Assembly (NCBI RefSeq): GCF_008014775.2
Contig: NZ_CP144914.1
Span: 2,666,001 to 2,730,000 of the forward strand
Direction: 5' to 3'
DNA length: 64,000 bases
From: Alkalicoccus halolimnae
GTDB taxonomy: Bacteria > Bacillota > Bacilli > Bacillales > Salisediminibacteriaceae
The notes beneath the pieces are model-generated. The model did not search any database. It saw nothing but the letters and a program-made list of their open reading frames with translations, and was not told the DNA's origin. Each line of letters opens with the position of its first letter. The first letter of the stretch is position 1. Shown in pieces: positions 4,125-59,250 of this stretch. A program made the translations under genes and the position numbers.

Positions 4125-4266
4125 GCTGCCGCTTCCGCCTGACGATGGACGCTTTCCGGAGGGAACGACCTCAGCTAATTTCTTCCTTTCAATGATCGGA
4201 AGAAATGGATCTTCGGTTCGTCCTCAAATCCTCCCGGAGTCGCCATCTTCGGCTTCCGCAGCAGCT
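4125..4266 (-). repeat. Structured intergenic repeat, R1 type (copy i)
   Basis: Read on the minus strand this copy folds into nested stems: outer GATGG-CG with CG-T-CCATC, and a central perfect hairpin ATTTCTTCC / GGAAGAAAT (4178-4186 with 4198-4206). Fixed unpaired motifs GACTCC, GAAGATCC, AGCTGAGG and GGAAAGC are shared with the other copies. It is non-coding. It lies in the 3923-5189 gap, which otherwise holds further repeats and no gene I can support. Confidence 0.8.
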
Positions 4267-4290
4267 CTAAAGCTGACAGCTTTTCTTATT

Positions 4291-4595
4291 ATATAAATTG
4301 AACTTAATATTTATATAGATAGAAGGTATGACGACGAAAGCGGTCTTCCCTATCGAAAGAAAGAATGGTGTTATCTTTTTGAACGGCAGAGCGTTTTTGG
4401 CGGAAGAACTGAAAAGAAGGACAGGCCGATGCAGAGCCCATGGGGCGGCTCCGGGGCGAAATTAGGTCGAGTCGAAGATCCATTCCGCCAGACCATAGGG
4501 AGGAAGGGGTTAGCTGAGGCCGGTCCTGCGCCCCTTGGAAACGAAATCGGCTGGTTACAGAAACGGAACCTAATTATTAAGTTCAACATCTATAA
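4291..4595 (+). mobile_element. MITE-like element with terminal inverted repeats carrying an R1 repeat (copy A)
   Basis: Left end TTGAACTTAATATTTA (from 4298) and right end TAATTATTAAGTTCAA (to 4586) are inverted repeats matching at 15 of 16 positions. The same ends bound two other copies at 12.5 kb and 59.3 kb. Inside, the right half (about 4430-4552) is an R1 structured repeat; the left 130 bp is conserved among the three copies and contains a short open frame. No transposase is present, so any movement would need one elsewhere. Exact ends and target duplication are not clear. Confidence 0.65.
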
Positions 4596-4699
4596 CTGTA
4601 TTAGTTTTCAGTATTGTTATTAAAGAGCGTCTCTGCCCGGGAGCTGGCTTTACTGAATGGAAAGTCTATTAATGAAAGACAGACCTTCTCTTTATATCA

Positions 4700-4825
4700 T
4701 TCACAAAAACGAAGCGGAAGCCGGCCCGTTGAGAAGGAGGTCGGAAGATCCCACAGGAAGCAAGTCCGAGGTAGTTAAGAACTCCCCCACAACAGAGCTG
4801 AAGCGAAGTTATCTATAATAACCAC
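4700..4825 (+). repeat. Intergenic repeat, R2 type
   Basis: Shares ACGAAGCGGAA at its left, GGAAGATCCC and AAGTCCGAGG in the middle and CAGAGCTGAAGCGAAGTT at its right with copies at 22.07-22.19 kb and 36.08-36.19 kb. Non-coding, function unknown. Confidence 0.65.
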
Positions 4826-4956
4826 AGCGAACGTTATCAGAAACACTTTTGCTGAATAGTTTCACCATTATAGACGTAAATAACCTTCAATATTTTATTT
4901 TCTAAGTAGACTTCCTAAAAGTCTGCCGCCTAAAGAAACCTCTGACCTGTCCCCTT

Positions 4957-5092
4957 CTTTCTGAAGCGAACGGCGGTGACTCCTGCGGGATTTAAGCAAA
5001 GTCTGAAGATCCTTTATGGAGAAGCCGCGCTTCTCCGTAAAGAGCTGAGGACGAGCCCCGCGGAAAGCTTCCGCCGGTGAGCGCAGGAAAGA
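4957..5092 (+). repeat. Structured intergenic repeat, R3 type (copy m)
   Basis: Nested stems: GGCGG with CCGCC; CC-T-GCGGG with CCCGCGG (one bulged T); and a central 13-bp hairpin CTTTATGGAGAAG / CTTCTCCGTAAAG (5012-5024 with 5030-5042). Motifs GACTCC, GAAGATCC, AGCTGAGGACGAG and GGAAAGC are those of the R1 repeats, so R1 and R3 look like one superfamily. Confidence 0.75.
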
Positions 5093-5159
5093 AAAGAACC
5101 GGTGTATATACAGAATAACCGGTAATTGTACAAAGAAGAAGACTTTGTCTACAAACCAA

Positions 5160-5181
5160 AAGCCGCCCGGAAAGGCGGCTT
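5160..5181 (-). terminator. Rho-independent terminator of the hem operon
   Basis: Stem AAGCCGCC / GGCGGCTT right after the hemL stop, followed on the minus strand by TTTTGGTTT. Confidence 0.75.
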
Positions 5182-5189
5182 TCTTTTCT

Positions 5190-6485
5190 TTATTTACTTT
5201 CGTAAGCCATGATGGAAAAAGCTTTCTCTGCAGCTTCGAGTGTTTTGTCGATATCTGCTTCCGTATGCTTCGTGGATAGAAACAGCCCTTCAAACTGGGA
5301 TGGAGGAACGGATACACCGTTTTCCAGCATCAGATTAAAATAGCGGCTGAACATGTCAAGATCCGACGTTTTTGCCGTTTCAAAATCCCGTACCACTTCA
5401 TTTGTAAAGAAGAAACCGACCATCGATCCGGCACGCGTCGTCCAGTGAGGAATGCCGTGCTTTTCTGCCGCAGCAGCGAGTCCTTTTTCCAATCTTCTGC
5501 CGATTTTCTCAAAGTACTCGTAGCTCTCCGGCGTCAGCTGGCTGATCGTCTCATAGCCGGCTGTCATTGCGAGCGGGTTGCCGGAAAGCGTGCCCGCCTG
5601 ATAAATGTTCCCTTCCGGAGCAATCCGTTCCATAATGTCGCGTCTTCCTCCGAAAGCACCTGCCGGCAGTCCACCGCCGATGACTTTACCGAGGCAGGTA
5701 AGGTCCGGAGTTACCCCGAGCTCTCCCTGAGCACAGTTATAACCGACGCGGAAGCCGGTCATTACTTCATCAAAAATAAGCAGGGAACCGTATTGTTCTG
5801 TCACTTCGCGGATGCCTTCCAGATAACCTGGATCAGGACGGACAACGCCCATATTGCCGGTAACAGGTTCAATAATGACACCGGCAATATCGTCCCCGAA
5901 TTTTTCAAAGGCAAGCTTCAGGCTTTCCAGATCGTTGTATGGAACGGTCAGCGTGTTGGAAGCAATGGAATCGGGTACTCCCGGACTGTCCGGTAGTCCG
6001 AGTGTTGCTACACCGGAACCTGCTTTAATCAGAAGGGAGTCCGTGTGACCGTGATAACAACCTTCAAACTTCAGAATTTTGCTGCGTCCTGTGTAGCCCC
6101 GTGCAAGGCGGAGTGCACTCATCGTTGCTTCTGTGCCGGAGCTTGTCATACGCACGACTTCCACAGAGGGAACGCGGTCAATGATCAGCTCGGCCAGCTT
6201 TGTTTCCGTTACGTGGGGTGCGCCGAAGCTCGTGCCTTTTTCCGCTGTTTCTTTAATTGCATCAATGACCTGCTTGTCGGCATGTCCGTGAATGAGCGGT
6301 CCCCAGGAAAGGATGTAGTCAATATACTCATTGCCATCGAGATCCCATAGCCTGGAGCCTTCTCCTTTATCAAAATAAACCGGGTCGCGCCCAACAGAAT
6401 TAAATGCCCGCACCGGACTGTTCACACCGCCCGGCATAAGCGGTTTTGCTTGTGCAAATGCTTCAGAAGATCGGTTCCAGTTCAT
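5190..6485 (-). CDS. hemL: Glutamate-1-semialdehyde 2,1-aminomutase
   Basis: PLP enzyme converting glutamate-1-semialdehyde to 5-aminolevulinate, the second step of C5-route haem synthesis. The 431-residue length is standard. The PLP lysine is K267 in [17 protein letters not shown]; the fold-type I motifs [15 protein letters not shown] (115-129) and FDEVMTGFR (238-246) are intact. It is the last gene of hemA-X-C-D-B-L, 20 bases behind hemB, and a terminator follows. B. subtilis has spoVID and ysxE beyond this point; they are absent here. Confidence 0.98.
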
Positions 6486-6505
6486 ATAAACACCTCGTTA
6501 ATGAA

Positions 6506-7480
6506 TTATTTGTTCAGCCAGTCGGCAACATCTTTCGCAAAGTACGTGAGAATCAAGTCAGCTCCGGCCCGCTTCATGCTTACCATTTTCTCCATTACGA
6601 CTGCCTCTTCATCGATCCAGCCGTTCTGGGCAGCTGCTTTAACCATCGAATATTCCCCGCTGACGTTATAGGCTACAATCGGCAGTTCTTCGCGTTCTCT
6701 TACGTCACGAATAATATCGAGGTAGGAAAGGGCCGGCTTGACGATAAGGAAATCGGCGCCTTCTTCCACATCGGAGCGTGCTTCGCGAAAAGCTTCGCGG
6801 CGGTTCGCAGGATCCATTTGATACGTTTTGCGGTCTCCGGACTGCGGAGAGGAATGCGCCGCATCACGAAACGGCCCGTAAAAAGCAGATGAGTACTTGA
6901 CCGAATAGCTCATAACGGGTACGTGCTTGAAGCCCGCTTCATCAAGTCCCTGACGGATCGCTGTCGTAAAACCATCCATCATATTGGAAGGGGCGATAAT
7001 GTCCGCTCCCGCTTCCGCCTGGGAAACGGCTGTTTTGACGAGCAGGTCAAGCGACTCATCGTTAAGAATCTGCCCGTCCTGAACGACGCCGCAGTGCCCG
7101 TGATCGGTAAACTGACAGAGACACGTATCGGCAATAACCGTCAGTTCCGGATGATTTGCTTTAATCTGCCGGGTGGCGCGCTGCACAATGCCTTCTGTAT
7201 CGTAGGCACTTGTGCCGACAGCGTCTTTATGGGCCGGAACACCGAAAAGAATAATCGCCTGAATACCTTTCTCCACCGCTTCTGCAGCTTCTGCATCGAC
7301 GCGGTCAAGCGACCACTGGTACACCCCGGGCATGGAATTGACCGGATTTTTAATATCGTTTCCGTCCATGACGAAAATAGGATAAATTAAATCTTTCGTA
7401 TGCACGTGCGTTTCGCGTACTAAATCCCGCATTCCTTTTGAATTACGAAGGCGGCGGTGACGGTCAAAAGAATAATTCAT
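6506..7480 (-). CDS. hemB: Porphobilinogen synthase (5-aminolevulinate dehydratase)
   Basis: Condenses two 5-aminolevulinate molecules into porphobilinogen. Active-site lysines are K195 ([14 protein letters not shown]) and K248 ([12 protein letters not shown]). The zinc-site cysteines C120, C122 and C130 are present ([14 protein letters not shown]), so this is a zinc-type enzyme. Its ATG overlaps the hemD stop as ATGA, indicating translational coupling; GGAAGG precedes the start. Confidence 0.98.
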
Positions 7481-8202
7481 CGTTTCACCTTCCTGTTTTT
7501 AATGGTATCGATCAAAGCTTCTATCGTGTACGTCTGCGGAACCAGGACCTCCCGGGAAGTTTTTTTGCCGAGAGCCTCCGCGGTGACGCTGCCGATGCAG
7601 CCGTACGAAACATTCTCCGGTACATCTTCAGCTTTCACAAAAGTAAAAAAAGCGTCGACAGCCGTAGGACTCATGAAGATAACGATATCGACGTCCTGGA
7701 GTGCCTCGGGAAGTTTTATGCCAGCCGCATCATTAGGCAGCGTATCGTACAGCACCACATCTTTCACGGTCCTGCCTTCTGCGAGAAGCTGCTCTTTCAG
7801 GAAGGGACGGGACTTTTTGCTGCGCGGATAAATGATCCTGTCTCCCGGTTCTGTTTCTGCGAGCAGCTTGTCTGCAAGAGCTTCGGCGCGAAATTCCTGC
7901 GGTATCAACGATACGCTGTAACCTTGATTTTCGGCATAGGCTGCCGTTTTGGAGCCTACACAGGCAATTTTCGCCTTCATCAGGCCTGCAGCAGCTGCCT
8001 CCTTCCAGAAACGGACGCTGTTCACGCTCGTAAAAACGAGCCAGTCCGTTTCCTTCAATTCAGGAATATCAGCCGGAAGCGCTGCCAGCCGGATAAGCGG
8101 CAGATCAATACAGTTCCACCCTTCCGCTTCCAAGGCGGTACGGAGCGGAGCCAGCTGATGTTCTGCTCTTGTATTTAGAAGCGTCAGCGGTCGCTGTTCC
8201 AT
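7477..8202 (-). CDS. hemD: Uroporphyrinogen-III synthase
   Basis: Closes and rearranges hydroxymethylbilane into uroporphyrinogen III. HemD sequences are poorly conserved, but the two-lobe pattern is visible: [13 protein letters not shown] in lobe one, [12 protein letters not shown] and [12 protein letters not shown] in lobe two. Position between hemC and hemB and the 241-residue length support the call. It starts 9 bases behind the hemC stop and overlaps hemB by four bases. Confidence 0.95.
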
Positions 8203-8211
8203 CGTATCCCT

Positions 8212-9144
8212 CTATTCGCCGAGTTCCGCTTTCACTTTGTCCAGCACTTCCTTGGCACCTTCATCAAGCATTTTCTGAGCAGCCTGTTTACCGATCGCAA
8301 CCGGATCATGGCCGGTAATGGATTCTTTAAATACCTGCTTCCCATCCGGAGAAGCAACGAGCGCAGTTAAAGCGACCTGGTTGTCTTCCATCAGTGTCGC
8401 ATAGCCGCCGATCGGCACCTGGCAGCCGCCTTCCACGGTGTGCAGGAAGGAACGTTCCGCCGAAACAGTTCGTGCCGTCAGCGGATCATCAATTTTTTTC
8501 AATAAGTCGAGCAGTTCCTGGTCATCTTCGCGGCACTCAATGCCGAGTGCCCCCTGCCCTACTGCAGGTATACACGTTTCCGGAGGAAGAAATTCCGAAA
8601 CGATTGATGGATCCCAGCCGACACGCTTCAAGCCTGCCGCTGCAAGAATAATCGCGTCGTATCCTTCTTCGCGGCACTTGCGGAGACGGGTTTCGATATT
8701 TCCCCGGATCCATTCAATTTTCAGGTCCGGACGCTGAATCAGCACCTGTGCACCGCGGCGGAGGCTGCTCGTTCCGACAACAGCGCCTTCAGGGAGGTCC
8801 ATCAGCTTTACGCCGCTGTTGGAAATAAAGGCATCCCGCGGATCTTCGCGTTCCGGTACGGCTCCTACAGTAAGACCTTCTGCCATATGCGACGGCAGGT
8901 CTTTCATACTGTGTACCGCCATATCAATTTCTCCGTCGTACATCGCTTTTTCTATTTCCTTTACAAAAAGCCCTTTGCCACCGACTTTGGAAAGGGTTAC
9001 GTCTAATATTTGATCGCCTTTCGTGACGATTTCTTTGATTTCGAATTCATATGGGACGCCAAGTTCCTTGAACTTTTCGATAACCCATCTTGTCTGGGTC
9101 ATAGCCAGGTTGCTGCGGCGGGACCCGATGATAATTTTACGCAT
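8212..9144 (-). CDS. hemC: Porphobilinogen deaminase (hydroxymethylbilane synthase)
   Basis: Polymerises four porphobilinogens into hydroxymethylbilane. C241 in [13 protein letters not shown] is the residue that binds the dipyrromethane cofactor. KGLFVKEIE and AVHSMKDLP (domain 1, aspartate of the catalytic site) and [10 protein letters not shown] are intact. Length 310 is normal. GGAGG lies upstream of the ATG at 9142-9144. The gap to hemX is 111 bases. Confidence 0.98.
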
Positions 9145-9255
9145 ATGATGAAGTTCCTCCTTCTGAATAATTGAAGCTTTGCCTATAAGCAGGAAACTTT
9201 TTCAGCACGTCCCCTGCCATGGCTATTGTAACATTTTCCTTTCACCTGCGTGCAT

Positions 9256-10068
9256 TTACCAGATATGAAAACTGGAGAAAACGCTGGAGAGAAAGTAATT
9301 GATAAGAAGCAGCAGAAAAGCCGCCGTATTAAATAAGGCAAGGTTATATCCACGCATGCCTGCGACACGGTACTGGACGAGAAACGCCCCGTATACGATC
9401 AGTACGAGAAACGAACTGAGAATTTTCATGTCGAACCAGGGAATGGCGCCTACGGATACAGATGCCCAGATCACCCCGAGAATCAGCCCCGTAAACAGCA
9501 GAGGCAGACCGATCAGAGCGCCGTAATAGGCACTCCGCTCCAAATTGGAAAGGTTGCCGAATTTCTCCAGCCAGGTGCCCCATATTTTCCTTTTTAAAAG
9601 TTTATGCTGAACAACATAAAGCAGGGAAAAAGCGAAAGATACGGTAAATGCCCCGTAGGAAAGCATCAGCAGGCTCACGTGCACGACTAAAAACTCCGTA
9701 ATAAGAACGTCAGCAAGCTGCTGCGAAACGTCTCCGGCAGGCGAAATCAGGCTTATGGAAAGCAGCGTAAACCCGATTGCGTTAACAAGCAGCATAAAGA
9801 CGTTCATTTTAAGCATGCGATTTAATACGAGCGAAACAGTGACGAGTATCCAGGCGTAGACGAACATCCCTTCAAAAGCTGTCATCAATGGCAGTCTGTC
9901 CAGCGTTAAAAAACGCCGGATAAATAGAAAGAGCTGGAGTATCCAGACGACAGAAAGCAACCAGAAGGCCACTCGATTGACCTTCTGGTTGTTCTGCATG
10001 AAATCAATAAAGTAGCCGAGAACGCTGATCGAATAAAATACCAGGATCAAAGCGTAAAGCATATTCAT
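9256..10068 (-). CDS. hemX: HemX, cytochrome c assembly-family membrane protein of the haem operon
   Basis: Integral membrane protein of the CcsA/HemX family, 270 residues with about eight hydrophobic segments. In B. subtilis HemX lowers the amount of HemA protein, so a feedback role on the first enzyme is likely (known for the family, inferred here). Its ATG overlaps the hemA stop as ATGA, so the two are translationally coupled. It lacks an obvious WWD haem-handling motif, which separates it from true CcsA. Confidence 0.92.
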
Positions 10069-12302: not shown

Positions 12303-12421
12303 ATTTCCACACCAGACGGACGCTTTCCGTGGGGCTGGTCTTCAACTAATTCTGCCTCCGCCAGGCTCCGTCAGAGTGGATTTTCAGACGGCACTGATCC
12401 CACAGGAGTCGCCGCCTTTTG
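12303..12421 (-). repeat. Structured intergenic repeat, R1/R3 intermediate (copy g)
   Basis: On the minus strand: GGCGG with CCGTC (one G-T pair), and CC-T-GTGGG with CCCACGG. The same bulged-T stem is CC-T-GCGGG / CCCGCGG in the R3 copies, i.e. a compensatory C-G to T-A change. Motifs GACTCC, AGTTGAAGAC and GGAAAGCG are kept; the central hairpin is decayed. The 12218-13287 gap contains only repeats. Confidence 0.65.
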
Positions 12422-12504
12422 TATCAATCATCTGCTTTTTTTAAGAAATCTATTGTCATGAAGATTAAAAACGTTTAAAAACTCCAAGAGAAATTTTTAT
12501 GAAA

Positions 12505-12804
12505 TATATAAATTGAACTTAATATTTATAAAGACAGAATGTATGACCTCGAAAGCGGTCTTCTCTATCGAAAGAAAGAAGGGTGTTATAATTTTTAACG
12601 ACCATACCTGCAGGAAGAACAAAGATGGAGAACAGGCCGCTGCAGGGCACATGGTGCGACTCCAGGGCGAATCAGGACGAGCCCCACCCCGCCCGACCGC
12701 AGGGAGGAAGGGATTAGCTGAGGCCCGCCCGGAAAGCGTCCCCATGGAAACGAAAGCGGCTGGTTACAGAAGCGGAGACTAATTATTAAGTTCAACATAT
12801 AAAG
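12505..12804 (+). mobile_element. MITE-like element with terminal inverted repeats carrying an R1 repeat (copy B)
   Basis: Left TTGAACTTAATATTTATA (from 12513), right AATTATTAAGTTCAA (to 12795). Internal sequence is clearly homologous to copy A at 4.3 kb and copy C at 59.3 kb, including GCGGTCTTC, TATCGAAAGAAAGAA and the R1 core at about 12640-12772. No transposase. Confidence 0.65.
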
Positions 12805-12955: not shown

Positions 12956-13090
12956 CATGAGCGCAGCGAAAGACGGTGACTCCCAAAGGATCAAACGCCG
13001 TCTGAAGATGCAATTTTGTGAAGGTTTTTCCGCAAATTTCAGCTGAAGACATGCCCTTGGGAAAGCGTCCGTCAGCAGCGCAGGTCATTT
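12956..13090 (+). repeat. Structured intergenic repeat, R3 type (copy l)
   Basis: Outer GACGG / CCGTC and second stem CCCAA-AGG / CCCTTGGG. The stem sequences differ from the other copies but pairing is kept. Motifs GACTCC, CTGAAGAT, AGCTGAAGAC and GGGAAAGCG are kept. Between 13091 and 13287 I see only a weak hairpin (CAGGGCA / TGCCCTG, about 13225-13283) after the ABC gene. Confidence 0.65.
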
Positions 13091-21555: not shown

Positions 21556-21868
21556 GCTGCCTTGAAGATAAAACTGATAAGTGATGAACGTACGCTTTCG
21601 TTTCCATGGGGACGCTTTCCGGGCGGGCCGGTCTCAGCTAATCCCGTCCTCCCCACGGTCGGCAGGGATGGATCTTCAGCTCGTCCTTGATCGCCCAGGA
21701 GTCGCCCCATCTCCACTCCAGCTCACGGTAAAAAGATAAAGAAGTATCTACCATCTAATAAAGAAAATCCCTTCTTGAAAATCATTCATACCACCTTTAT
21801 ATATGGGAAATTCCCTTCCTGTAAAAGGGCATTTTCATCCTTCAGGGTGCAAGGTTTTTGCATGAGTA
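21556..21868 (-). repeat. Long R1 repeat with 5' extension (copy f)
   Basis: Reading the minus strand: CCTTGCACC, then GATGAAAATG, CAGGAAGGGAA, GGTATGAA, TTCAAGAAGGGATTTTC, followed by the R1 core (GGGGCGACTCC to CGTCCCCATGGAAACGAAAG) and a tail ending TTCAAGGCAGCC. Copies d (35.8 kb) and e (51.8 kb) have the same modules in the same order. Non-coding. This is part of the 21280-22258 gap, which holds repeats only. Confidence 0.75.
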
Positions 21869-21871
21869 GCT

Positions 21872-22190
21872 CTGTTAAAGCTCCGTGTTATTTTTGGAGT
21901 CCCAGCGGCTCTTCCGCCTGCCGGGCACGCGGCTTCCCTTGCGTCCGGGAGGATTTTCCCGCTTTCTTTTTCCGCAGGCGCCTTGGAAAATCACCTGGGC
22001 ACTGGTTTATATCTTTGTATCTTCTTGATTAAAACAGCGGGATTTCTGTATTGGAAAATTAAAACGAAGCGGAAACCGGCGGACGCCAGTGGAAAAAGGA
22101 GATTGGAAGATCCCGCAGGGCGTAAGTCCGAGGAAGCTGAAAAGCTCCTCCACGGCAGAGCTGAAGCGGAGTTTTCTATATTTATCAACA
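21872..22190 (+). repeat. R2-type composite repeat
   Basis: Starts CTCTGTTAAAGCTCCGTGTT, contains GGAGG.TTTTCCCGCTTT and CTTCTTGATT, and ends with the R2 unit to GAGTTTTCTATATTTATCAA. A copy at 63.54-63.76 kb matches along its length but lacks about 100 bp between two GAAGCGGA direct repeats. Confidence 0.7.
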
Positions 22191-22258: not shown

Positions 22259-22335
22259 TGGTGTCCCAGGAGGGATTCGAACCCCCGACCGACGCCTTAG
22301 AAGGGCGTTGCTCTATCCTGCTGAGCTACTGAGAC
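22259..22335 (-). tRNA. tRNA-Arg (anticodon UCU)
   Basis: On the minus strand: acceptor GTCTCAG pairs with CTGGGAC, D-arm AGCTCAGCAGG, anticodon stem ACGCC / GGCGT around loop CTTCTAA (anticodon TCT, reads AGA/AGG), T-arm GGGGGTTCGAATCCCTC, and encoded CCA. 77 nucleotides with CCA. It stands alone with its own terminator. Confidence 0.97.
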
Positions 22336-35769: not shown

Positions 35770-36062
35770 AAGAAGCCTTGCACCATGCGGCATGAAAATG
35801 GCCTTCTGCAGGAAGGGAACTTCCCCTCTATAGAGGAGGTATGAACAATGTTCAAGAAGGGGTTTTCTTTATTAGCAGGCAGATGCTGCTCTGTCTTTTT
35901 ACCGTGGCCTGGAGTGGAGATGGGGCGGCACCAGGGCCATGAAGGACGAGCTCCACCCCGCACGACCGCTGGGAGGACGGGATTAGCTGAAGCCGGTCCT
36001 GCGCCCCCATGGAAACGAAAGCGCCTGTTTATCACTTATCTGCTTTATTTTCAAGGCAGCCT
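35770..36062 (+). repeat. Long R1 repeat with 5' extension (copy d)
   Basis: Modules in order: CCTTGCACCATG, GCATGAAAATGG, CAGGAAGGGAA, GGTATGAACAATG, TTCAAGAAGGGG, then a shortened R1 core (GGGATTAGCTGA, then CCCCCATGGAAACGAAAGCG) and the tail TTTCAAGGCAGCC. It lacks the GGAAAGCGTC piece of the other copies. Confidence 0.7.
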
Positions 36063-43830: not shown

Positions 43831-43970
43831 CCTTCTTTCTGAAGCTAACGGTGGGGACTCCTGCGGGAAAAAGCGAAGTCGGAATATCCTTTTTGTCGAA
43901 GCTGAGCTTCGACAAAAACAGCTGAAGACGAGCCCCGCGGAAAGCCTCCCCAGGAAGCGAAGGAAAGAAG
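43831..43970 (+). repeat. Structured intergenic repeat, R3 type (copy n)
   Basis: Nested stems CTTCTTTCT / AGGAAAGAAG, GCT / AGC, TGGGG / CCCCA, CC-T-GCGGG / CCCGCGG, and a perfect 13-bp hairpin TTTTTGTCGAAGC / GCTTCGACAAAAA (43890-43902, 43906-43918). Compared with the copy at 4.96 kb nearly all stem bases differ, yet all stems pair. Confidence 0.78.
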
Positions 43971-44201: not shown

Positions 44202-44345
44202 AAGCCGGCTGCAGAAGCCGGAGATGGCGGCTCCTGGAGGATTAAGGACGATCCGAAGATCCATGCCTTCCAACCCCTGGGGCGGAAGGAATCAGCTGAG
44301 GCCGTCCCCTCCGGAAAGCGTCCATCGGCAGGCGTAAGCAGCCTT
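44202..44345 (+). repeat. Structured intergenic repeat, R1 type (copy h)
   Basis: GATGG-CG / CG-T-CCATC outer stem, extended by GCC / GGC and GGCTGC / GCAGCC; central hairpin ATGCCTTCC / GGAAGGAAT (44263-44271, 44284-44292). Motifs GAAGATCC, AGCTGAGG and GGAAAGCG are kept. Confidence 0.75.
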
Positions 44346-47775: not shown

Positions 47776-49470
47776 TTAGCCAGACTTTTGACGTTCTTTT
47801 TCTTCTTCCTGCAGAGCACGGCGCAGCACTTTTCCAACCATCGTCTTCGGAAGTTCATCTCTGAACTCATACATGCGAGGTATTTTATAGGAAGAAAGCT
47901 GTGAGCGGCAGTAGGTGTCCAGTTCTTTTTCCGTTACCTGTTTCCCATCTTTCAGCACGACAAAAGCTTTCACTGTTTCTCCACGGTAAGGATCGGGAAT
48001 GCCGACAGCCACAGCTTCTTTGACTGCTTCGTGTTCGTAAAGAATTTCTTCAATTTCCCGCGGATAAATATTGAAGCCTCCGGCAATAATCATGTCCTTC
48101 TTCCGGTCAACGATATAAAAGAAACCTTCTTCGTCCATATAACCCATGTCTCCCGTATAAAGCCAGCCGTTCTGCATCGCTGCAGCTGTTTCCTCCGGTC
48201 GGTTCCAATATCCCTGCATCACCTGCGGACCGCTGATCAGCAGCTCACCAACTTCATGCGGAGGGGCTTCTTCGCCTGTTTCCGCAGAAAGGATCATCAC
48301 ATTCGTATCCGGCCACGGCAGACCGATACTGCCCGTCGGACGTTTTCCCCACATCAAATTGAAGTGGGTTACAGGAGAGGCTTCGGTGAGGCCGAATCCT
48401 TCCGAAAGTTTTCCCCCGGTCAGATGTTCAAAACGCTGCTGGACTTCGACAGGAAGGGGAGCTGATCCGCTGATGCAGGCTTCGATTGAAGATAAATCAT
48501 ATTTACCGACGTTTGGATCATTTATTACGCCGATATACATTGTCGGAGCCCCCGGGAAGATCGTCACTTTCTGCTTTTCGATCGCCTGGAGTGTCTGCTT
48601 CGTATCAAATTTTGGCAGAATAACCATTTTCGCACGGTTCAGCACTGCATAGTTCATCCCGATCGTCATTCCATAGACGTGGAAAAAAGGAAGCGCACAT
48701 AAAATTACTTCTTCCCCGTGCTTCATCGTATACATCCAGCGGATAGCCTGGGTTGTATTAGCTACGAGATTCCTGTGCGTTAGCATGACACCTTTTGCAG
48801 CTCCGGTTGTGCCCCCGGTATACTGCAATAAAGCCAGATCCTTCTCTGTATCGATCTCTACTGGGTTCACAGCAGCCGGCTTTTTCTTTAACAGTTCAGT
48901 AAAGCTGTGTGTTCCGGCATCATAATCAACACTTACTTTCATGCCGGTGTTTTTCTTTTGAATAAACGGATAGATCATATTTTTAGGAAAAGGAAGATAA
49001 TCTTTTATATGCGTCACAATCACGTGTTCCAGAGCGGTTTTTTCCTTGACCGCTTTGACTTTTGGATAAACGAGGTCAAGGCAGATGATCACCTTGGCTC
49101 CCGAGTCCACCATCTGATGCTCAAGTTCCCGTTCTACATAAAGCGGGTTCGTCTGAACAACGACTCCTCCGGCCATTAGAATTCCGTAGTAGCTGACAAC
49201 AGACTGCGGAGTGTTGGCAAGCATGATTGCTACCCGGTCTCCCTTATGTACACCCATCTGCTGAAGCTGACCGGCAAAACGTTTTGCCTCTTCATATACC
49301 TGTTTAAATGTCATCGTCTTACCAAGGAAATGAAGAAGGACTTTATCCGGCTCTTCTTCTGCTCCTTCCTGCAGATATGAGTGGAGCGTCTGATGCGGAT
49401 ATTCAAGTGATGCTGGAATTTCTTCCGGATATTGATTCAGCCAGGGTCTGGCCGTTAATTCTGTTACCAT
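47776..49470 (-). CDS. lcfA: Long-chain fatty acyl-CoA ligase, copy 1
   Basis: Adenylate-forming enzyme that activates fatty acids to acyl-CoA. AMP motif YTGGTTGAAKGVMLTHRN at about 214-231; A5-type GFGLTEASPV; hinge and C-terminal DRKKDMIIAGGFNIYPREIE; lysine in PKTMVGKVLRR. 564 residues. AGGAGG lies 8 bases before the ATG. A second, clearly paralogous copy lies 87 bases upstream. Order ligase-fadR-fadB matches B. subtilis lcfA, which has only one copy here. Confidence 0.96.
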   Translation of the reverse strand: MVTELTARPWLNQYPEEIPASLEYPHQTLHSYLQEGAEEEPDKVLLHFLGKTMTFKQVYEEAKRFAGQLQQMGVHKGDRVAIMLANTPQSVVSYYGILMAGGVVVQTNPLYVERELEHQMVDSGAKVIICLDLVYPKVKAVKEKTALEHVIVTHIKDYLPFPKNMIYPFIQKKNTGMKVSVDYDAGTHSFTELLKKKPAAVNPVEIDTEKDLALLQYTGGTTGAAKGVMLTHRNLVANTTQAIRWMYTMKHGEEVILCALPFFHVYGMTIGMNYAVLNRAKMVILPKFDTKQTLQAIEKQKVTIFPGAPTMYIGVINDPNVGKYDLSSIEACISGSAPLPVEVQQRFEHLTGGKLSEGFGLTEASPVTHFNLMWGKRPTGSIGLPWPDTNVMILSAETGEEAPPHEVGELLISGPQVMQGYWNRPEETAAAMQNGWLYTGDMGYMDEEGFFYIVDRKKDMIIAGGFNIYPREIEEILYEHEAVKEAVAVGIPDPYRGETVKAFVVLKDGKQVTEKELDTYCRSQLSSYKIPRMYEFRDELPKTMVGKVLRRALQEEEKERQKSG

Positions 49471-49557
49471 TGCCCATCCTCCTGATTATACTCTCCGGTA
49501 CAGGCAGACATTCTCTCTTATTAAGGAGGCAGCCGGAGGAAGCTCCGGCTCTCCGCA

Positions 49558-51246
49558 TTATTTTTTACTTTTTTCTTTTTCTTCTTCGACGAGAACACGC
49601 CGCAGAATTTTACCAACCATCGTCTTCGGCAGTTCTTCGCGGAATTCATAATACTGCGGAACTTTGAACGAAGCAAGGTCGTTACGGCAGTGCTCATCAA
49701 GCTTTTCTTCGGATAATGTGACGCCTTCTTTCGGTACGATAAATGCCTTTACCGTCTCCCCACGGTAAGGATCAGGCACTCCGATGACGCACACTTCCTG
49801 GACCCCTTCATGTTCATAAAGCACTTCTTCAATCTCACGAGGGTAAATATTGAAACCGCCTGCGATTATCATATCTTTTTTACGGTCGACGATGTAGAAG
49901 AAACCTTCATCATCCATATAGCCCATGTCCCCGGTTAAGAACCAGTCTCCTCTGAAGCTTGCCTGAGTCGCTTCCGGCTGATGCCAGTAGCCTTTCATTA
50001 CCTGGGGACCTTTAATCATCAGTTCTCCCACTTCATTCGCCCCGGCTTCTTCGCCGGTTTCGGCAGAAAGAACTTTTACTTCTGTGTCCGGCCATGGAAC
50101 TCCGATCGAACCTTCTTTTCTTTTCCCCCATAAAAAGTTGGCAATAGCGACCGGGGACGTTTCCGTCAGGCCGTATCCTTCTACGAGTTTACCGCCGGTG
50201 GCATCTTCAAACTTCGTCTGCACCTCGAGAGGCAGTGCCGCTGAACCGCTCAGGCAGGCTTTAATCGAAGAAAGATCGTGTTTCCGAATATCCGGATGGT
50301 TTAAAAGCCCGATATACATCGTCGGAGCCCCCGGATACAGAGAAGCCTTATGTTTTTCAATCGCTTTCAGAATTCCTTTTGGATCGAATTTCGGCATAAT
50401 TATCATTTTGAAAGCCATTCGGACCGATAAATTCATGACTACTGTCATTCCATAAACGTGGAAAAACGGCAGAGCGGCCATCATAACTTCTTCCCCGGCC
50501 TTTAATTTATACATCCAGTGTTCAGACTGCTGGGTGTTTACTGTCAGGTTATAATGAGTGAGCATAACCCCTTTTGCCGGGCCCGTCGTCCCTCCGGTAT
50601 ACTGGAGCAGAGCAAGATCTTCTTTTGGATTAATATCCAGGTCGATCTCCTCGGCTTTCCCTTTATTAATTAGATCTGTGAAGGAAAGCAGTGAGTCGGA
50701 ATAAGTCAGCTCTACCTTTATTCCGGTATTTTTCTTTTGAATAAATGGATAGACCATGTTTTTAGGAAACGGCAGATAGTCTTTTATTCCAGTAACTATA
50801 ATATGAGTGAGCGGCGTTTTATCCTTGATTTTAGCTACCCGCGGATAAACGAGATCAAGGCAGATCATCACCTTGGCTCCGGCATCGTTCATCTGGTGCT
50901 CAATCTCCCGCTCTACGTAAAGCGGATTTGTCTGCACGACCACGCCGCCTGCAAGCAGCACGCCGTAATAGCTGATAACAGCCTGAGGTGTATTGGCGAG
51001 CATGATAGCAACCCGGTCCCCCTGCTCTACCCCCATTTTCCTTAATTGACCAGCCAGCTTCAAAGATTCTTCATAAACAGCGCTGTACGTCATATCCTTA
51101 CCCATAAAATGAAGAGCACCTTTATTCGGAAACTGTTCCGCCGCCCGCTTCAAATAATATTGAAGTGTTTTTTCCTCGTACTCTATGGACTGCGGAATTT
51201 CCTGTGGATAGGAATCAAACCACGGCTTTTGTGTTAACGTTGTCAT
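49558..51246 (-). CDS. Long-chain fatty acyl-CoA ligase, copy 2 (tandem paralogue)
   Basis: Same family and architecture as its neighbour: YTGGTTGPAKGVMLTHYN, GYGLTETSPV, DRKKDMIIAGGFNIYPREIE, PKTMVGKILRR; 562 residues. Many segments are identical to copy 1 (GDRVAIMLANTPQ, GGVVVQTNPLYVERE, KDYLPFPKNM), others have diverged, so the duplication is not recent. GGGAGGG precedes the ATG. A FadR-like box lies about 200 bases upstream (51451), so both ligases are probably read from that promoter. Confidence 0.95.
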   Translation of the reverse strand: MTTLTQKPWFDSYPQEIPQSIEYEEKTLQYYLKRAAEQFPNKGALHFMGKDMTYSAVYEESLKLAGQLRKMGVEQGDRVAIMLANTPQAVISYYGVLLAGGVVVQTNPLYVEREIEHQMNDAGAKVMICLDLVYPRVAKIKDKTPLTHIIVTGIKDYLPFPKNMVYPFIQKKNTGIKVELTYSDSLLSFTDLINKGKAEEIDLDINPKEDLALLQYTGGTTGPAKGVMLTHYNLTVNTQQSEHWMYKLKAGEEVMMAALPFFHVYGMTVVMNLSVRMAFKMIIMPKFDPKGILKAIEKHKASLYPGAPTMYIGLLNHPDIRKHDLSSIKACLSGSAALPLEVQTKFEDATGGKLVEGYGLTETSPVAIANFLWGKRKEGSIGVPWPDTEVKVLSAETGEEAGANEVGELMIKGPQVMKGYWHQPEATQASFRGDWFLTGDMGYMDDEGFFYIVDRKKDMIIAGGFNIYPREIEEVLYEHEGVQEVCVIGVPDPYRGETVKAFIVPKEGVTLSEEKLDEHCRNDLASFKVPQYYEFREELPKTMVGKILRRVLVEEEKEKSKK

Positions 51247-51468: not shown

Positions 51469-51584
51469 TTTTCTCATTTCCCTGTATTATACAGTAATTT
51501 CAGAGTAAATAACTTCTTTTTTCAGATGAAAAATCAATACTCTTGTCTCTGAATATATAAAAAGCTGTTTGAGTCGTTTCTAAA

Positions 51585-51690
51585 GGATAGCGGAGGCTTT
51601 CCGCGGTGCTCGTCTTCAGCTATTTTTGCCGAATCACAGCTTCGCCAAAAAGGATTTTCAAACTTGGTGGTATTAAGTTATATTTTCCAC
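51585..51690 (-). repeat. Decayed R3-type repeat (copy o)
   Basis: On the minus strand the 3' half is intact: hairpin TTTTTGGCGAA / TTCGGCAAAAA, then AGCTGAAGACGAG, ACCGCGGAAAGC and CTCCGC. The 5' half (GACTCC part) is lost. Confidence 0.55.
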
Positions 51691-51831
51691 TAAATCGAAA
51701 ATGAACTACTTGTAAAAACTGCTCATGCCTGTTACTGCGGTTTTTTAAAGGGAAGAAGCAGCCTGTAAATGATAAAGAGCAGAAACGATCCCCTTTATAT
51801 AAGTAAGAGACTGGGACTTTAACAGAGACCC

Positions 51832-52132
51832 TCATGCAAAATCCTTGCACCATGAAGCATGAAAATGTCCTTTTATAGGAATGGATGCCCCATCTATACA
51901 GATGGAATCAATGATATCCAGAAGAGGTCTTCTACCTCCTGTTCTATCTTTTTTACCATAAGCTGTAGTGGACATGGGGCGACTCCGGGGCGATGAAGGA
52001 CGAGTCGAAGATCCATCCCTCCGACCGCCGGGAGGAAGGGATTAGCTGAGGCCGGCCCGCCCGGAAAGCGTCCCCATGGAAACGAAAGCGCACATTCATT
52101 GCTTATATCCTTTATTTTCAAGGTAGCTTACA
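51832..52132 (+). repeat. Long R1 repeat with 5' extension (copy e)
   Basis: CTCATGCAAAATCCTTGCACC, GCATGAAAATG and a diverged middle, then a complete R1 core: outer ATGGGGCG (51974-51981) pairs with CG-T-CCCCAT (52069-52077); CCGGG-G-CG with CGCCCGG; central ATCCCT / AGGGAT (52015-52020, 52037-52042). Tail ATTTTCAAGGTAGC. The cleanest copy for folding. Confidence 0.8.
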
Positions 52133-52178: not shown

Positions 52179-52235
52179 CATGATGTATCTATTTATAAAC
52201 ATACAGAAAGCTCTTCTCCCCCGGCGCCTCTCCAC

Positions 52236-52319
52236 TTAGATGAAAAATACCCAGTAGACAACTCCTGCCAGCATGAAGCCGGCACAGAGGAAAATAAGGA
52301 TTTTTGCTAATCTTTCCAT
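52236..52319 (-). CDS. 27-residue single-pass membrane peptide
   Basis: Too short for normal gene finding. ATG 52317-52319 stands 6 to 8 bases behind a strong GGGAGG site, and the frame MERLAKILIFL then CAGFMLAGVVYWVFFI ends in TAA at 52236. Charged N-terminus (ER..K) followed by about 21 hydrophobic residues predicts one membrane helix with the N-terminus in the cytoplasm. It lies 18 bases behind yshE and just before that transcript's terminator, so it is cotranscribed with the DUF350 protein. No function known to me. Confidence 0.75.
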   Translation of the reverse strand: MERLAKILIFLCAGFMLAGVVYWVFFI

Positions 52320-52337
52320 AAGGATGCCTCCCGTTCT

Positions 52338-52742: not shown

Positions 52743-52757
52743 CCGGATTCCTCCCCT

Positions 52758-55121: not shown

Positions 55122-55136
55122 AATTACCTTCCCTTC

Positions 55137-56852
55137 TTACGTCGTCGAATCTGAGAGATGTAAAAAGCTCTTCAATTCGGATATCGTCCATGTATTTACA
55201 ACATTATGCCGCTTTAATCCGGCACGGCGGGCCGTTTTTACTCCTGTTATCATATCCTCAAGCATATCATAGTGATGCGCGTCCGTATTAATAGCCACTT
55301 TCACACCGGCCGCCTGTGCTTTTTTCAAATTCTCCGCAGAGAGATCAAGCCGGTTCGGGTTGGCGTTCAATTCAAGAATAGTGTTTGTTTCCGCCGCCGT
55401 TTCTATCAGTTTTTCCATGTTGACGGCATAACCGCTGCGCCTGCCGATAAGCCTTCCTGTCGGATGAGCAATCATATTGACATGAGGATTGCGGCACGCA
55501 TTGATAAGACGCTTCATAATCGTTTCTTCATCCTGCTGAAAAGAGGAGTGAATCGATGCGATAACAAAATCGATCCCTTCCAGTACTTCATCTTCATAGT
55601 CGAGCGTCCCGTCCGGAAGAATATCCATTTCGATACCGGTGAATACGCGGATACCTTTTTCCTTCTGAAGTGTACGTATCTCCTCGTGCTGGCGTTTCAA
55701 ACGCTCAACGGTCAGGCCGTTCGCCACCTTTAAATACTGGGAATGGTCCGTAACCGCCATAAAGGTATACCCTTTGTCTGCACATCGGTCCATCATTTCT
55801 TCCAGGGACTGGGCTCCGTCACTCCACGTCGTATGCATATGAAGGTCGCCGCGGATATCTTCAAAAGAGAGCAGATCCTCAAATGTTTCTTCAAGCTCCC
55901 ATGCTCCTTCTCTTACTTCCGGAGGAATGAAAGGCAGGCCGTAATGAGAGAAAAATTCCGATTCTGAGTTGAAATAAATTTTTTCTCCCGTCTCCTCCAC
56001 TTCCACCCCGTATTCGCTTATTTTTTCTCCTCTTTCTTTCGCCCGCTGCCGCATCAGGACGTTATGATCCTTGGATCCAGTAAAATGGTGCAGGGTGGAG
56101 GCAAAGGAACGGTCTTCGATCAGCCTGAAATCGACGGGGATAATGTCGTCCCCGTATCGAAATTCGAGGGAGATTTTTGTATCCCCGCGGCCAATAACCG
56201 CTTCAATTCCCGAAAAGGCCAGAATACTTTCTTTTACTTCTGCCGGCTTTTCCGTAGCCACGATAAAATCAAGATCCTTCACTGTCTCCCGGCCGCGGCG
56301 AAAACTCCCGGCAAGTTCCCAGCGTTTGATTTCCTTTATATTTTCGAGCTTCTGACCGAGATCTTCCACTGCTGGATAAACAGAGGCCAGCGGCAGTCTT
56401 TCCGGTCGTTTTCCCATATCGTTAACTGCTTCGAGAATTTTATCCTCGGATTTCTTTCCGAAGCCTGAAAGATCCTGAATTTTATGGTCTTCACACGCCT
56501 GTTTCAGTTGTTCTGCATTCGTTACGCCAAGTTCCTTATAAAGCCTGCCGATTTTTTTGCCTCCAAGACCCGGAAGCTTTAGGAGCGGGATGAGCCCTTC
56601 CGGCACTTCCTGCTGAAGCTCTTCCAGAAGCTCTGTCGTTCCGGTTTGGCGAAGGTCTTCTATAATAGCCGCTGTCCCTTTACCGATGCCGGATAATGAA
56701 GCGGGGTCTTCAATTTGTTCCAGACTGCGTTCATCTTTTTCCAGTGCCTGGGCTGCTTTTCTGTATGCAGAAACACGGAAGGCGTTTTCTCCTTTTATTT
56801 CTAAATAAACAGCGATCGTTTCCATCGTCTGCAGTACTTCTTTTTTATTCAT
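55137..56852 (-). CDS. polX: Family X DNA polymerase with PHP exonuclease domain
   Basis: Repair polymerase of 571 residues. Helix-hairpin-helix LSGIGKGTAAIIEDL (about 53-67) and LPGLGGKKIGRLYKELG (about 92-108); nucleotidyl-transferase site LAGSFRRGRETVKDLDF, with the catalytic aspartates in DLD; C-terminal PHP 3'-5' exonuclease DLHMHTTWSDGAQS with metal histidines. AGGAGG precedes the ATG. Order zapA-cvpA-polX-mutS2 matches B. subtilis. Confidence 0.97.
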   Translation of the reverse strand: MNKKEVLQTMETIAVYLEIKGENAFRVSAYRKAAQALEKDERSLEQIEDPASLSGIGKGTAAIIEDLRQTGTTELLEELQQEVPEGLIPLLKLPGLGGKKIGRLYKELGVTNAEQLKQACEDHKIQDLSGFGKKSEDKILEAVNDMGKRPERLPLASVYPAVEDLGQKLENIKEIKRWELAGSFRRGRETVKDLDFIVATEKPAEVKESILAFSGIEAVIGRGDTKISLEFRYGDDIIPVDFRLIEDRSFASTLHHFTGSKDHNVLMRQRAKERGEKISEYGVEVEETGEKIYFNSESEFFSHYGLPFIPPEVREGAWELEETFEDLLSFEDIRGDLHMHTTWSDGAQSLEEMMDRCADKGYTFMAVTDHSQYLKVANGLTVERLKRQHEEIRTLQKEKGIRVFTGIEMDILPDGTLDYEDEVLEGIDFVIASIHSSFQQDEETIMKRLINACRNPHVNMIAHPTGRLIGRRSGYAVNMEKLIETAAETNTILELNANPNRLDLSAENLKKAQAAGVKVAINTDAHHYDMLEDMITGVKTARRAGLKRHNVVNTWTISELKSFLHLSDSTT

Positions 56853-56930
56853 CGGGATCCTCCTCTTTCATTCAGGTGGGTCGTACGTTTATCATTTTCC
56901 CTGCTTGCTGTGTTATCAGCCGGATTTACA

Positions 56931-56993
56931 AAAAAAAGTCCTGTTTTCTATTATGTTTGTCAGCATAAAAGAAAAAAACAGGCTTTTTTTGAC
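56931..56993. terminator. Terminator between cvpA and polX
   Basis: Arms GTCCTGTTTTCTATTATG and CATAAAAG..AAACAGGC pair with a few mismatches; T-runs on both strands. It would stop cvpA transcription, so polX-mutS2 may need its own promoter. Confidence 0.6.
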
Positions 56994-56996
56994 GTG

Positions 56997-57542
56997 CTAT
57001 TCTCTCGTACCTTCTATCCAGAGCTCACGTAATTCATTTGATACGATCGGCGTATAGTTGAATATCCATTGAGCAATCGATGAACTGTGCAGCAGCTGCT
57101 GGACAAATTCAACCTGAATAAGGGCAGCCAGATGAAGAAGAATTGCCATGATAACCAGGCCTTCAATAAATCCAAGCGCGGCACCAAGCCAGCTGTTGAA
57201 CACGTTAAGGATAGGCAGGTTGCCGATGAAATCCAGCATGGAGCCGATAATCTGGGTAATGATTTTGACCACGATAAAAATAAGGACAAAAGCAATTCCA
57301 TTATAATAGACCATTTCGCCTCCGAGCGCGTCATTAAGAAGCGGCCACGGGGATTCTTCCGGGAGCTGTAAAAATGGCACCCAGAGACGGATTAATTCTG
57401 CAAACGCTTCGTAGTAAAGCCAGGCTGCCATAAAAGAAATAATAAGACCGACAATATGTACTGCCTGGAGAACAAAACCGCGGCGAAAGCCCGTCATCAA
57501 ACTAACTATAAGCATTAAAATTAAAAATAAACTCAGTATCAT
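56997..57542 (-). CDS. yshB: CvpA-family membrane protein (YshB-like)
   Basis: CvpA/colicin V production family, 181 residues with four membrane helices (about 1-18, 25-45, 72-95, 112-135). Family motif GFRRGFVLQ near the N-terminus. Two ATGs are possible; the second (57540-57542) has GAGG 7 bases upstream, the first overlaps the zapA TGA as ATGA. Coupled with zapA either way. Confidence 0.9.
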   Translation of the reverse strand: MILSLFLILMLIVSLMTGFRRGFVLQAVHIVGLIISFMAAWLYYEAFAELIRLWVPFLQLPEESPWPLLNDALGGEMVYYNGIAFVLIFIVVKIITQIIGSMLDFIGNLPILNVFNSWLGAALGFIEGLVIMAILLHLAALIQVEFVQQLLHSSSIAQWIFNYTPIVSNELRELWIEGTRE

Positions 57543-57544
57543 CG

Positions 57545-57799
57545 TCATTCCTCTTTCTGGTTTTTTTCCTCCTGCACTTTTTTCTGCAGTGTGAGATAGT
57601 CATTGCTGATATTAAGAGCGGCAAGTACAGCAAGCTGGGAAGAAGAAAGGTACGGATTTCGTGATTTTATTTCACGGATATTTTTATCGACCAGCTCTGC
57701 AGCCTCATGAACGTGACGTTCGCTGTCTTCGCCGACGACTGTATACGTATTTTTAGCTATTGTAACCACTGTGCGGATTTTTCTTCCTTCCCGGCTCAC
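57545..57799 (-). CDS. zapA: Cell division protein ZapA
   Basis: 84-residue FtsZ-ring stabiliser. N-terminal VVTIAKNTYTVVGEDSERHV, then the RxxNPYLSSSQLAVLAALN helix and a C-terminal coiled coil. Start is GTG 57797-57799 behind GGGGGG. Divergent from rnhC across 164 bases. Confidence 0.95.
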   Translation of the reverse strand: MSREGRKIRTVVTIAKNTYTVVGEDSERHVHEAAELVDKNIREIKSRNPYLSSSQLAVLAALNISNDYLTLQKKVQEEKNQKEE

Positions 57800-57963
57800 T
57801 GCAGTCCCCCCTGTCTTCAGTAGAAATACTATATGTAATCATAACATGCGGGGGTCAGGAATAAAATATATTTGCTGTGAACCCGGGACCGCTTTCACCC
57901 CGTGATCCGCCGGACTCTTTCTGGTACAATCAAGCAGTACATATTTATCGACAGGAGGAACTT

Positions 57964-58902
57964 ATGAGCCAGCAGGTAATTAAAGCAGGACCGCAGCAGT
58001 TGGAAAAGATCAAAAACTACTATAAAAAAGGCGCCGTAAGCAAGCTGCCGCCGGGCGCTGTATTTGCGGCAAAAACCGACGGCTGCCACATAACGGCTTA
58101 TAAATCAGGGAAAGTTTTATTCCAGGGAGCTGCCAGTTACCAGGAAGCTTCCCGCTGGGGCGGCACGGGCTCCGGGTCAGGTAAAGGAAAATCGAAGACT
58201 TCCGTGGATCAGCATAAATATGCTCCACCGAAAGACATCAGCCAGTCGCAGCTGATCGGCAGCGATGAAACAGGAACAGGCGATTACTTCGGCCCGATGA
58301 CCGTCGTCGCAGCCCATTTATCCACCGCCCAGCTGCTCGAAGCAGAATCACTCGGTCTCCGGGACTCAAAAACGATTACCGACCCTGATATTAAACGAAT
58401 TGCCCCGAAGCTGTTAAAACTCTGCACGTACAGTTTAACGGTGCTGCGCAACGAAAAATATAATAAACTCCAGGCGGAAGGAATGAATCAGGGGCAGATG
58501 AAAGCGATGCTTCATCATGAAGCAATTAAGAATGTCATCGGGAAACTTCGTGATCAGGGAGATGCTTTTGACGGGGTATTAATCGATCAGTTCGTCAAAC
58601 CGGAAAGCTATTTTGCCTACCTCGCCAAGAGCGGTAAAAAATGGCCGTCCGAGATTCCTATTTACTTTGCTACGAAAGCAGAAAGTCTGCACCCTTCTGT
58701 AGCCGCCGGCTCCATTCTCGCCCGCTACGCCTTTCTTCAGGAAATGGATAAGTTAAGTGCATCCCTTGGCGTTCCTATTCCAAAAGGTGCCGGTCCGCGA
58801 GTCGATGAAGCGGCCGGGGAAATTTACCGCAGCCACGGCAGAGAAGCCCTTTACCGTTCCGTAAAATGGCACTTCTCCAACACGCAGCGGGCTGCGAAGT
58901 AG
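57964..58902 (+). CDS. rnhC: Ribonuclease HIII
   Basis: Cleaves RNA in RNA-DNA hybrids. N-terminal TBP-like substrate-binding domain (about 1-85), linker rich in G/S/K, then the catalytic domain with IGSDETGTGDYFGP (DE of the DEDE set), VLIDQFVKPE and KAESLHPSVAAGSILAR. 312 residues from ATG 57964 behind AGGAGGA; the frame is open upstream but not family-like. A possible -10 TACAAT lies at 57925-57930. Confidence 0.97.
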   Translation: MSQQVIKAGPQQLEKIKNYYKKGAVSKLPPGAVFAAKTDGCHITAYKSGKVLFQGAASYQEASRWGGTGSGSGKGKSKTSVDQHKYAPPKDISQSQLIGSDETGTGDYFGPMTVVAAHLSTAQLLEAESLGLRDSKTITDPDIKRIAPKLLKLCTYSLTVLRNEKYNKLQAEGMNQGQMKAMLHHEAIKNVIGKLRDQGDAFDGVLIDQFVKPESYFAYLAKSGKKWPSEIPIYFATKAESLHPSVAAGSILARYAFLQEMDKLSASLGVPIPKGAGPRVDEAAGEIYRSHGREALYRSVKWHFSNTQRAAK

Positions 58903-58947
58903 AAGTGATTAAAGTTTTTAAAGGCAGACCTACGTGATTTTCGGTTA

Positions 58948-59002
58948 AGCCGAAGAGGATCTGAGTGAGCAGAAATCTGTTCACTCAACCCCTATTCGGG
59001 CT
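58948..59002 (+). other. Stable hairpin downstream of rnhC
   Basis: Perfect 11-pair stem TGAGTGAGCAG / CTGTTCACTCA (58962-58972, 58977-58987) within an outer, looser pairing of AGCCGAA with TTCGGGCT. No T-run follows, so it is not a typical terminator. Confidence 0.5.
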
Positions 59003-59129
59003 CTCCTACTCAGGTCAGCCACTTATCGTGTACTGTTCCTAAAAAGTATCTATTTATTTAGTCGAATCAATTTTAAAATATAAAATCATTAGCGTAAAGT
59101 ACGAATGAGGTATAGGATCTCCGCTGCAG

Positions 59130-59250
59130 ACTGACCGGGAGATGGATATCTCCACCAAAGTCCATATAGGAAATCAGCGGAGGCAGGCCCCGCGCCTCAG
59201 TGGAAACGAAAGCGTACGCTTATCGCTTCTATACTCTATTTTCAAGGTAT
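59130..59250 (+). repeat. Decayed R1 repeat (copy k)
   Basis: Only pieces remain: AATCAGC, GCGCCTCAGTGGAAACGAAA and the R1 tail CTATTTTCAAGGTA, after which copy C of the inverted-repeat element begins. Confidence 0.5.

Follow-up and report, generated by a model that had tools for sequence, protein, structure and literature searches.

The 64-kb window analysed here (bases 2,666,001–2,730,000 of the 3,694,897-base single-contig genome of Alkalicoccus halolimnae, NZ_CP144914.1) harbours multiple copies of an intergenic repeat, the conserved module of which is an imperfect hairpin of about 115–135 nt. A covariance model (R1) was built from a seed of 15 copies, eight from the window and seven from named relatives, and yields 15 matches within the window, eight of which are seed sequences and match by construction, the other seven lying outside the seed. 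The seed members are located at 4138–4253 (minus strand, E=7.1e-28), 4966–5081 (plus, 4.4e-24) and 43844–43958 (plus, 9.1e-23), the latter two with a long central hairpin, at 12309–12422 (minus, 3.8e-23), carrying an AA/TT variant of an AG/CT motif pair, and at 21601–21715 (minus, 7.7e-28), 44217–44332 (plus, 1e-25), 51969–52082 (plus, 5.3e-28) and 59392–59506 (plus, 1e-29). The remaining matches comprise two copies with a type B backbone (4435–4555, plus, 1.8e-11, starting TATATAAATTGAACTTAATA; 12646–12750, plus, 1e-15), a copy at 12966–13079 (plus, 1.1e-16), a degraded one at 35915–36015 (plus, 1.3e-07), one with a degraded 5' part at 51583–51697 (minus, 1.5e-04; nhmmer E=7.2e-11), and two that were absent from the list of a first-pass annotation of this DNA: 22071–22174 (plus, 4.7e-08) and 63567–63668 (minus, 7.9e-05; nhmmer E=7.5e-04), the second of the GACGCC/GGCA type. 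That annotation had placed a dozen or more copies of a roughly 130-nt element at 14 positions, 13 of which coincide with R1 matches (E≤1.5e-4); the fourteenth, at 59.2 kb, is a partial remnant comprising the 3' half of the element (59173–59247, plus strand; repeat family D6) and has no R1 match. In the whole genome the exact motif pair occurs 90 times, versus 0 occurrences of a reversed control; together with the lack of R1 matches in most of a phylum sample (see below), this shows that the repeats are not a product of chance.

Read from the 5' end of the sense strand, the module consists of an outer stem, the bases G-A-C facing A-A-G-C, and TCC paired with GGA. Further inwards, a single bulged base precedes a stem of 5 bp, which an AACAG-type bulge separates from a stem of 4 bp; a bulged A and a stem of 3 bp come next, and then the internal loop GAAGAU/AGCUGA. 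The innermost part is the central hairpin, which varies most between copies. By its base sequence, the internal loop below it can be read as a succession of GA·GA, AG with CU, A·G and U-A pairings. An analogy to attC (integron) sites and a kink-turn reading of this loop were considered and dropped.

The nested helices of the module covary above phylogeny and are combined with fixed loop motifs. In the seed alignment 87.8% of the cells are paired, versus 69.3% with partners shuffled and 35–48% with partners slid, and changes on both sides occur in 22 of the 30 seed pairs. For a stricter test, 255 copies were clustered at 80% identity, and the 68 representatives were aligned without structure and compared with 60 simulated alignments in which the per-branch substitutions on the tree were replayed at random positions; all 68 rows and 113 of the 141 columns were used. 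The eight best covarying pairs are all located in proposed helices, with E 0.017 representing the floor of the test. Fifteen pairs have E below 0.5; ranks 9 and lower (E 0.067 to 0.4) are occupied by 30-88, 49-75, 43-76, 37-82, 6-108, 54-66 and 46-75, of which 49-75 and 46-75 fall off the proposed structure. The first-pass annotation had described stem bases as changing in pairs, had taken this to mean that the fold rather than the sequence is kept, and had called for a statistical test of covariation; both the seed pairing and the tree-based null bear this description out.

The short motifs between the stems had been regarded as fixed and unpaired. Fixed they are, but not simply unpaired, since pairs inside the motifs covary: 16-96 is TA in 42 and GC in 10 sequences, 41-78 is GC in 55 and AT in 8, and 43-76 is TA in 57 and CG in 9, with swaps of GACTCC/GGAAAGC to GACGCC/GGCAAGC, of AG/CT to AA/TT and of T-A to C-G. 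The outer motifs are less variable than the stems (0.020 vs 0.069 per site) among 19 copies retrieved with a pattern that does not select for these motifs. Rare changes in the motifs show a three-fold deficit in the main subfamily, the pattern-found copies being biased for the inner motifs. From 82 ungapped 115-nt copies, the 75 with above 55% identity to the consensus were kept. Unpaired motif bases are among the columns that are invariant across genera. The outer stem, said to be shared by all copies, has weak support in the cross-species alignment (51–68% Watson-Crick at positions 6–11 and 34–38% further out), because its register differs between subfamilies.

Searching the genome and its relatives with a covariance model, as the first-pass annotation had suggested, retrieved the family genome-wide and order-wide. 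The A. halolimnae genome contains at least 150 R1 copies (150 of 1571 candidates scored), and copies are present in all eight genomes of the genus, with 63–148 in each of the seven others. Within the order, R1 matches (E≤1e-5; at most 24 candidates scored per genome) come from 102 of 150 genomes, representing 61 of 83 genera. In a sample of the phylum only 3 of 299 genomes match, i.e. that of A. halolimnae, a second genome from its order and a third from its class but outside the order; the other 296 had no match at E≤1e-6 under strict filters with 12 candidates scored per genome, so that weak copies could have escaped detection. Among the matches listed, such copies occur in records of Alkalicoccus, Halobacillus, Gracilibacillus, Virgibacillus and Oceanobacillus, as well as in a single record with the title Paenibacillus bovis; Alkalicoccus and Halobacillus are classed as Bacillaceae. 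Among plasmids, a query with just the element hits a single record (Radiobacillus kanasensis), and the element with its flanks matches 25 records, the others among those listed being matched on a flanking gene or a contig end. The element of genome G087 (see below) had no match in phage records, and a pattern search of viral contigs found none. Ten of 126 A. halolimnae copies overlap an open frame of at least 130 aa.

Within the A. halolimnae genome (G000:C1), the section from 1.3 to 2.3 Mb holds only 6 of the 150 scored copies (binomial p 2e-13); of the 90 copies with the exact pattern, 9 are located there (p 1e-4). The sign of GC skew changes near 1.92–2.0 Mb in the sampled pieces of the genome, so that the copies seem to avoid the terminus region; most of the pieces sampled within this section are also richer in coding sequence. 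Neighbouring copies within 700 nt of each other are arranged head-to-head in 17, tail-to-tail in 4 and directly in 23 cases.

Copies differ in place between syntenic relatives, in which most of the sites carry no copy. A 40-kb block, in which 32 window genes occur in the same order in four relatives, contains eight R1 copies in A. halolimnae, four in G002, two in G007 and none in G001 and G003 (nine, four, two, none and none with nhmmer); the two genomes that are copy-free in the block have 93 and 103 copies elsewhere. Three element-bearing gaps span 1095, 1078 and 694 bases in A. halolimnae, as compared to 421–672, 134–374 and 90–158 bases in the copy-free relatives. Both copies of G007 and one R1 copy of G002 occupy other gaps than the copies of A. 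halolimnae.

Features of a mobile element are most evident in the amplified genome G087, in which the module is carried by a 189-bp element. Near-identical copies end in GGCTCTGTTAAAG ... TTTAACAGAGC and are bordered by 8-bp A+T-rich target duplications, the identity over 8 bp amounting to 81% versus 41% between unrelated loci; the duplication is perfect in 7 of 17 scored copies, three of the 20 copies having been left out for want of recognisable ends. Inverted-repeat matches with at most 2 mismatches number 142, versus 0 in the control. With a length of 115–189 bp, no coding capacity, high copy number and, in G087, terminal inverted repeats and target duplications, the element shows hallmarks of miniature inverted-repeat transposable elements (MITEs). 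Six G087 loci (L265, L266, L268, L271, L284 and L293) retain ends and duplications but have wholly or partly lost the core; four of these are 89-bp forms, generated by two different junctions, and two carry shorter deletions. The core losses occur at short repeats, which suggests that the hairpin forms in single-stranded DNA. In A. halolimnae, similar cores reside in at least two backbones: among the 120 of 126 copies that could be typed (the remainder being too near a locus end), 68 are of type A, 10 of type B and 42 of other types, type B having inverted ends and no clear target duplication. Amplified copies in other genomes likewise share the core and have different flanks. In two further G087 copies (L282:1-130 and L292:1-130) the element is broken directly behind GACTCCT by one common sequence, which we take to resemble a group II intron at its 5' end, and a 546-bp copy (L273:978-1522) contains a nested second element with ends like GTCACTGAAAAA / TTTTTCAGTGGCC and a hairpin core of its own.

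Taken together, the family probably constitutes a superfamily of non-autonomous mobile DNA elements, i.e. MITE-like foldback repeats, spread over a bacterial order. The best reading of the module is that of a MITE-borne mobile DNA hairpin, REPIN-like in working and without linkage to RAYTs. Selection on the fold would act on lineages that are still moving, at a stage when the DNA is single-stranded or extruded, and the hairpin with its fixed motifs could serve as the recognition target of a protein, be it from the mobilising machinery or from the replication fork; resident copies would then decay. The resident copies show a symmetrical loss of pairs. If selection acts, as proposed, on the multiplying copies and on the DNA fold, a protein probably reads the folded strand.

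The first-pass annotation had left the choice between a structured RNA and a DNA hairpin, and the DNA half of this alternative fits the data better, including the inverted repeats and 8-bp duplications seen in one genome. A structured RNA (a small RNA or a cis-acting mRNA element) that happened to multiply would account for covariation with fixed loop motifs and for folding z-scores of -4.9, -2.0, -2.9 and -1.2 obtained with four RNA sequences, the minimum-energy fold of the second (z -2.0) differing from the proposed one and only its centroid being close. RNA stems, however, tolerate G·U more than A·C. In the diverse set, broken pairs amount to 40 G·U vs 60 A·C, and in the own-genome set to 49 vs 64 (pairs with >70% Watson-Crick only), and one-sided changes in the main subfamily to 35 G·U vs 34 A·C. 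The consensuses of the 13 clusters with at least three copies contain 297 Watson-Crick, 4 G·U (1.3% of 301), 13 A·C and 23 other cells, as compared to 345 Watson-Crick, 23 G·U (6.3%) and 0 A·C in a control of 17 tRNAs, in which ARAGORN itself favours pairing. Changes in the paired bases of the element thus follow Watson-Crick rules, and G·U is not tolerated in the way it is in RNA. Likewise, the orientation relative to genes, which had been proposed as a check, reveals no bias: among the 126 A. halolimnae copies, 24 are sense and 29 antisense to tandem genes (p 0.58), 37 lie between convergent and 26 between divergent genes, and 10 at a locus edge. Convergent gaps are slightly enriched (37 of 116 placed copies vs 18 of 92 copy-free gaps, p 0.057), which speaks for an RNA. 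Against it stand also the small number of gene sites common to relatives, a DNA-strand prediction that gives the same overall fold (three sense sequences with z -5.1, -2.4 and -3.5, two antisense ones with z -1.8 and -2.2) and the lack of an Rfam match, both for any copy in the window at gathering score and, as regards relevant matches, with relaxed thresholds for 3900–5200. A structured RNA is judged improbable.

Somewhat less improbable, yet still unlikely, is that no selection acts on the fold at all and that complementarity of the arms is kept by template switching or gene conversion at the palindrome. According to PMC8794818, hairpin stems can arise and persist through template switching, which can also account for compensatory changes. 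Pairs that are Watson-Crick with little G·U, whole central stems that differ between otherwise similar copies, and deletions at short repeats, which point to hairpin-prone replication, would all agree with such a process. Perfecting of the arms should, however, erase bulges and mismatches, yet unpaired motif bases are among the columns invariant across genera, an invariance that template switching does not explain; moreover, in the main subfamily 115 changes are one-sided, versus 39 that are two-sided and preserve Watson-Crick pairing. Template switching may contribute to the covariation. Most improbable of all appears mobilisation of a REPIN-type repeat by a RAYT (Y1/HUH transposase), although the element resembles REPINs as described in PMC3116915 in being a DNA hairpin repeat whose motifs are fixed and whose changes are compensatory. 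A. halolimnae does encode a single RAYT-like protein (222 aa; L150:1423-2088, G000:C1:3104140-3104805), but its match to Y1_Tnp is weak and below the cut-off. RAYT-like homologues occur in 91 of the 150 genomes of the order, and seven amplified genomes stand outside this set, G001, G007 and G044 being listed without a RAYT-like match and G092, G093, G100 and G128 being in no listed row; this distribution disfavours RAYT as the mover. The 3.3-kb locus of the gene contains no element motif beyond one internal GCTTTCC, and the nearest R1 copy is 1.7 kb away. Furthermore, 8-bp target duplications do not fit HUH transposition. The 222-aa protein reads DVH where HUH is expected and may be a domesticated Y1 transposase.

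Several observations weigh against the interpretation as a MITE-like mobile DNA hairpin. Inverted repeats together with duplications were shown systematically only in one amplified genome, and most copies in other genomes are devoid of G087-type ends. Core-less elements keep their ends and duplications, so that the core is not proven necessary for movement. Searches for ISL3 (in 14 genomes, six of them without an ISL3 match) and for Y1_Tnp (in A. halolimnae) found no mobilising transposase. The consensus test also contains 13 A·C and 23 other mismatches, part of these cells being register errors, as are some of the A·C cells among the broken pairs counted above. Purine-rich fixed internal loops are typical of RNA, and the slight trend towards convergent gaps would also fit a role at transcript ends. 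Finally, three element gaps of A. halolimnae are also matched in G002, one of them by a 43-base partial match, and some sites may accordingly be old.

A more far-reaching proposal, advanced only tentatively and considered doubtful on balance, is that the hairpin itself constitutes an independent mobile module, namely an order-wide structured DNA signal that would be swapped between unrelated transposon backbones and would need recognition as folded single-stranded DNA by a putative non-RAYT protein for its carrier to multiply.

Among known systems, the element comes closest in working to REPINs, mobile hairpins for which fixed motifs along with compensatory changes are described (PMC3116915). 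REPs are 20–40 bp long, carry a GTAG or CGTC tag and, in the case of GTAG repeats, are linked to RAYTs (PMC3733652). Like REPs and REPINs, the family is made up of many dispersed extragenic DNA hairpins with short fixed motifs and stems that change in a compensatory way; the present element differs from these tagged 20–40 bp palindromes by its size of 115–189 bp with a core of about 115 nt, its several conserved internal loops, the lack of RAYT association and the 8-bp duplications (in one genome). ERIC/RU repeats of enterobacteria, such as the 127-bp RU-1 (PMC2759123), are similar in length (about 127 bp), intergenic location and MITE-like nature. They occur in other taxa and are set apart by description. 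We know of no account of a multi-loop architecture or DNA-type covariation in ERIC. Bcr1 is a dispersed repeat of similar size (PMC2267715), which the title of the original paper characterizes as having mobile-element characteristics and as specific to the Bacillus cereus group; this restriction, in contrast to 61 of 83 sampled genera for the element, distinguishes the two, again by description. Bhal-1 of B. halodurans (74 bp, 36 copies; PMC2267715), compared in the same manner, is an intergenic stem-loop repeat of a Bacillus-type species that is shorter than the element and could represent a partial view of the hairpin superfamily. The 8-bp duplications and GGCTCT-type ends are also features of ISL3-family MITEs. 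ISL3 elements have an 8-bp target duplication and ends beginning GGCTCT. None of the ISL3 loci examined had ends matching the element (G087 end motif checked in 26 of 26, inverted ends in 9 of 26), and ISL3 was rejected as the mover; the 8-bp duplication is present in one genome, without ends shared with an autonomous ISL3. Fragments of ISL3-type transposases located between or beside element copies in G092 (L245, L251 and L256) were not taken as evidence. The family is filed as a variant of MITE-like hairpin repeats rather than as a REP, Bcr1 or RNA family. No prior description was found by searches of the open-licence literature aimed at the element; an earlier one elsewhere is possible.

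Other features of the window include two adjacent open reading frames of 564 and 562 aa (47776–51246), which share repeats of 72–77% DNA identity at a constant offset of 1779 bases. They are a tandem gene duplication, and by their motifs we take the products to be acyl-CoA ligase-like. A T-box leader (63234–63462) and a gene for tRNA-Arg (22259–22335) are both located on the minus strand.

The element is present in many copies in many genomes of the order, yet no Rfam match was found for its copies in the window. Its properties carry a warning, in that strong covariation combined with fixed loops, the usual signature of functional RNA, can stem from mobile DNA hairpins; a comparison of G·U and A·C mismatches can help to tell RNA from DNA hairpins. 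Should the proposal of an independent mobile module prove true, the hairpin would represent a selfish structure of DNA whose evolution proceeds through compensatory Watson-Crick changes, unlike a sequence-defined transposon end. Finding the recogniser would show how selection on a mobile element can have the shape of its DNA as its unit.

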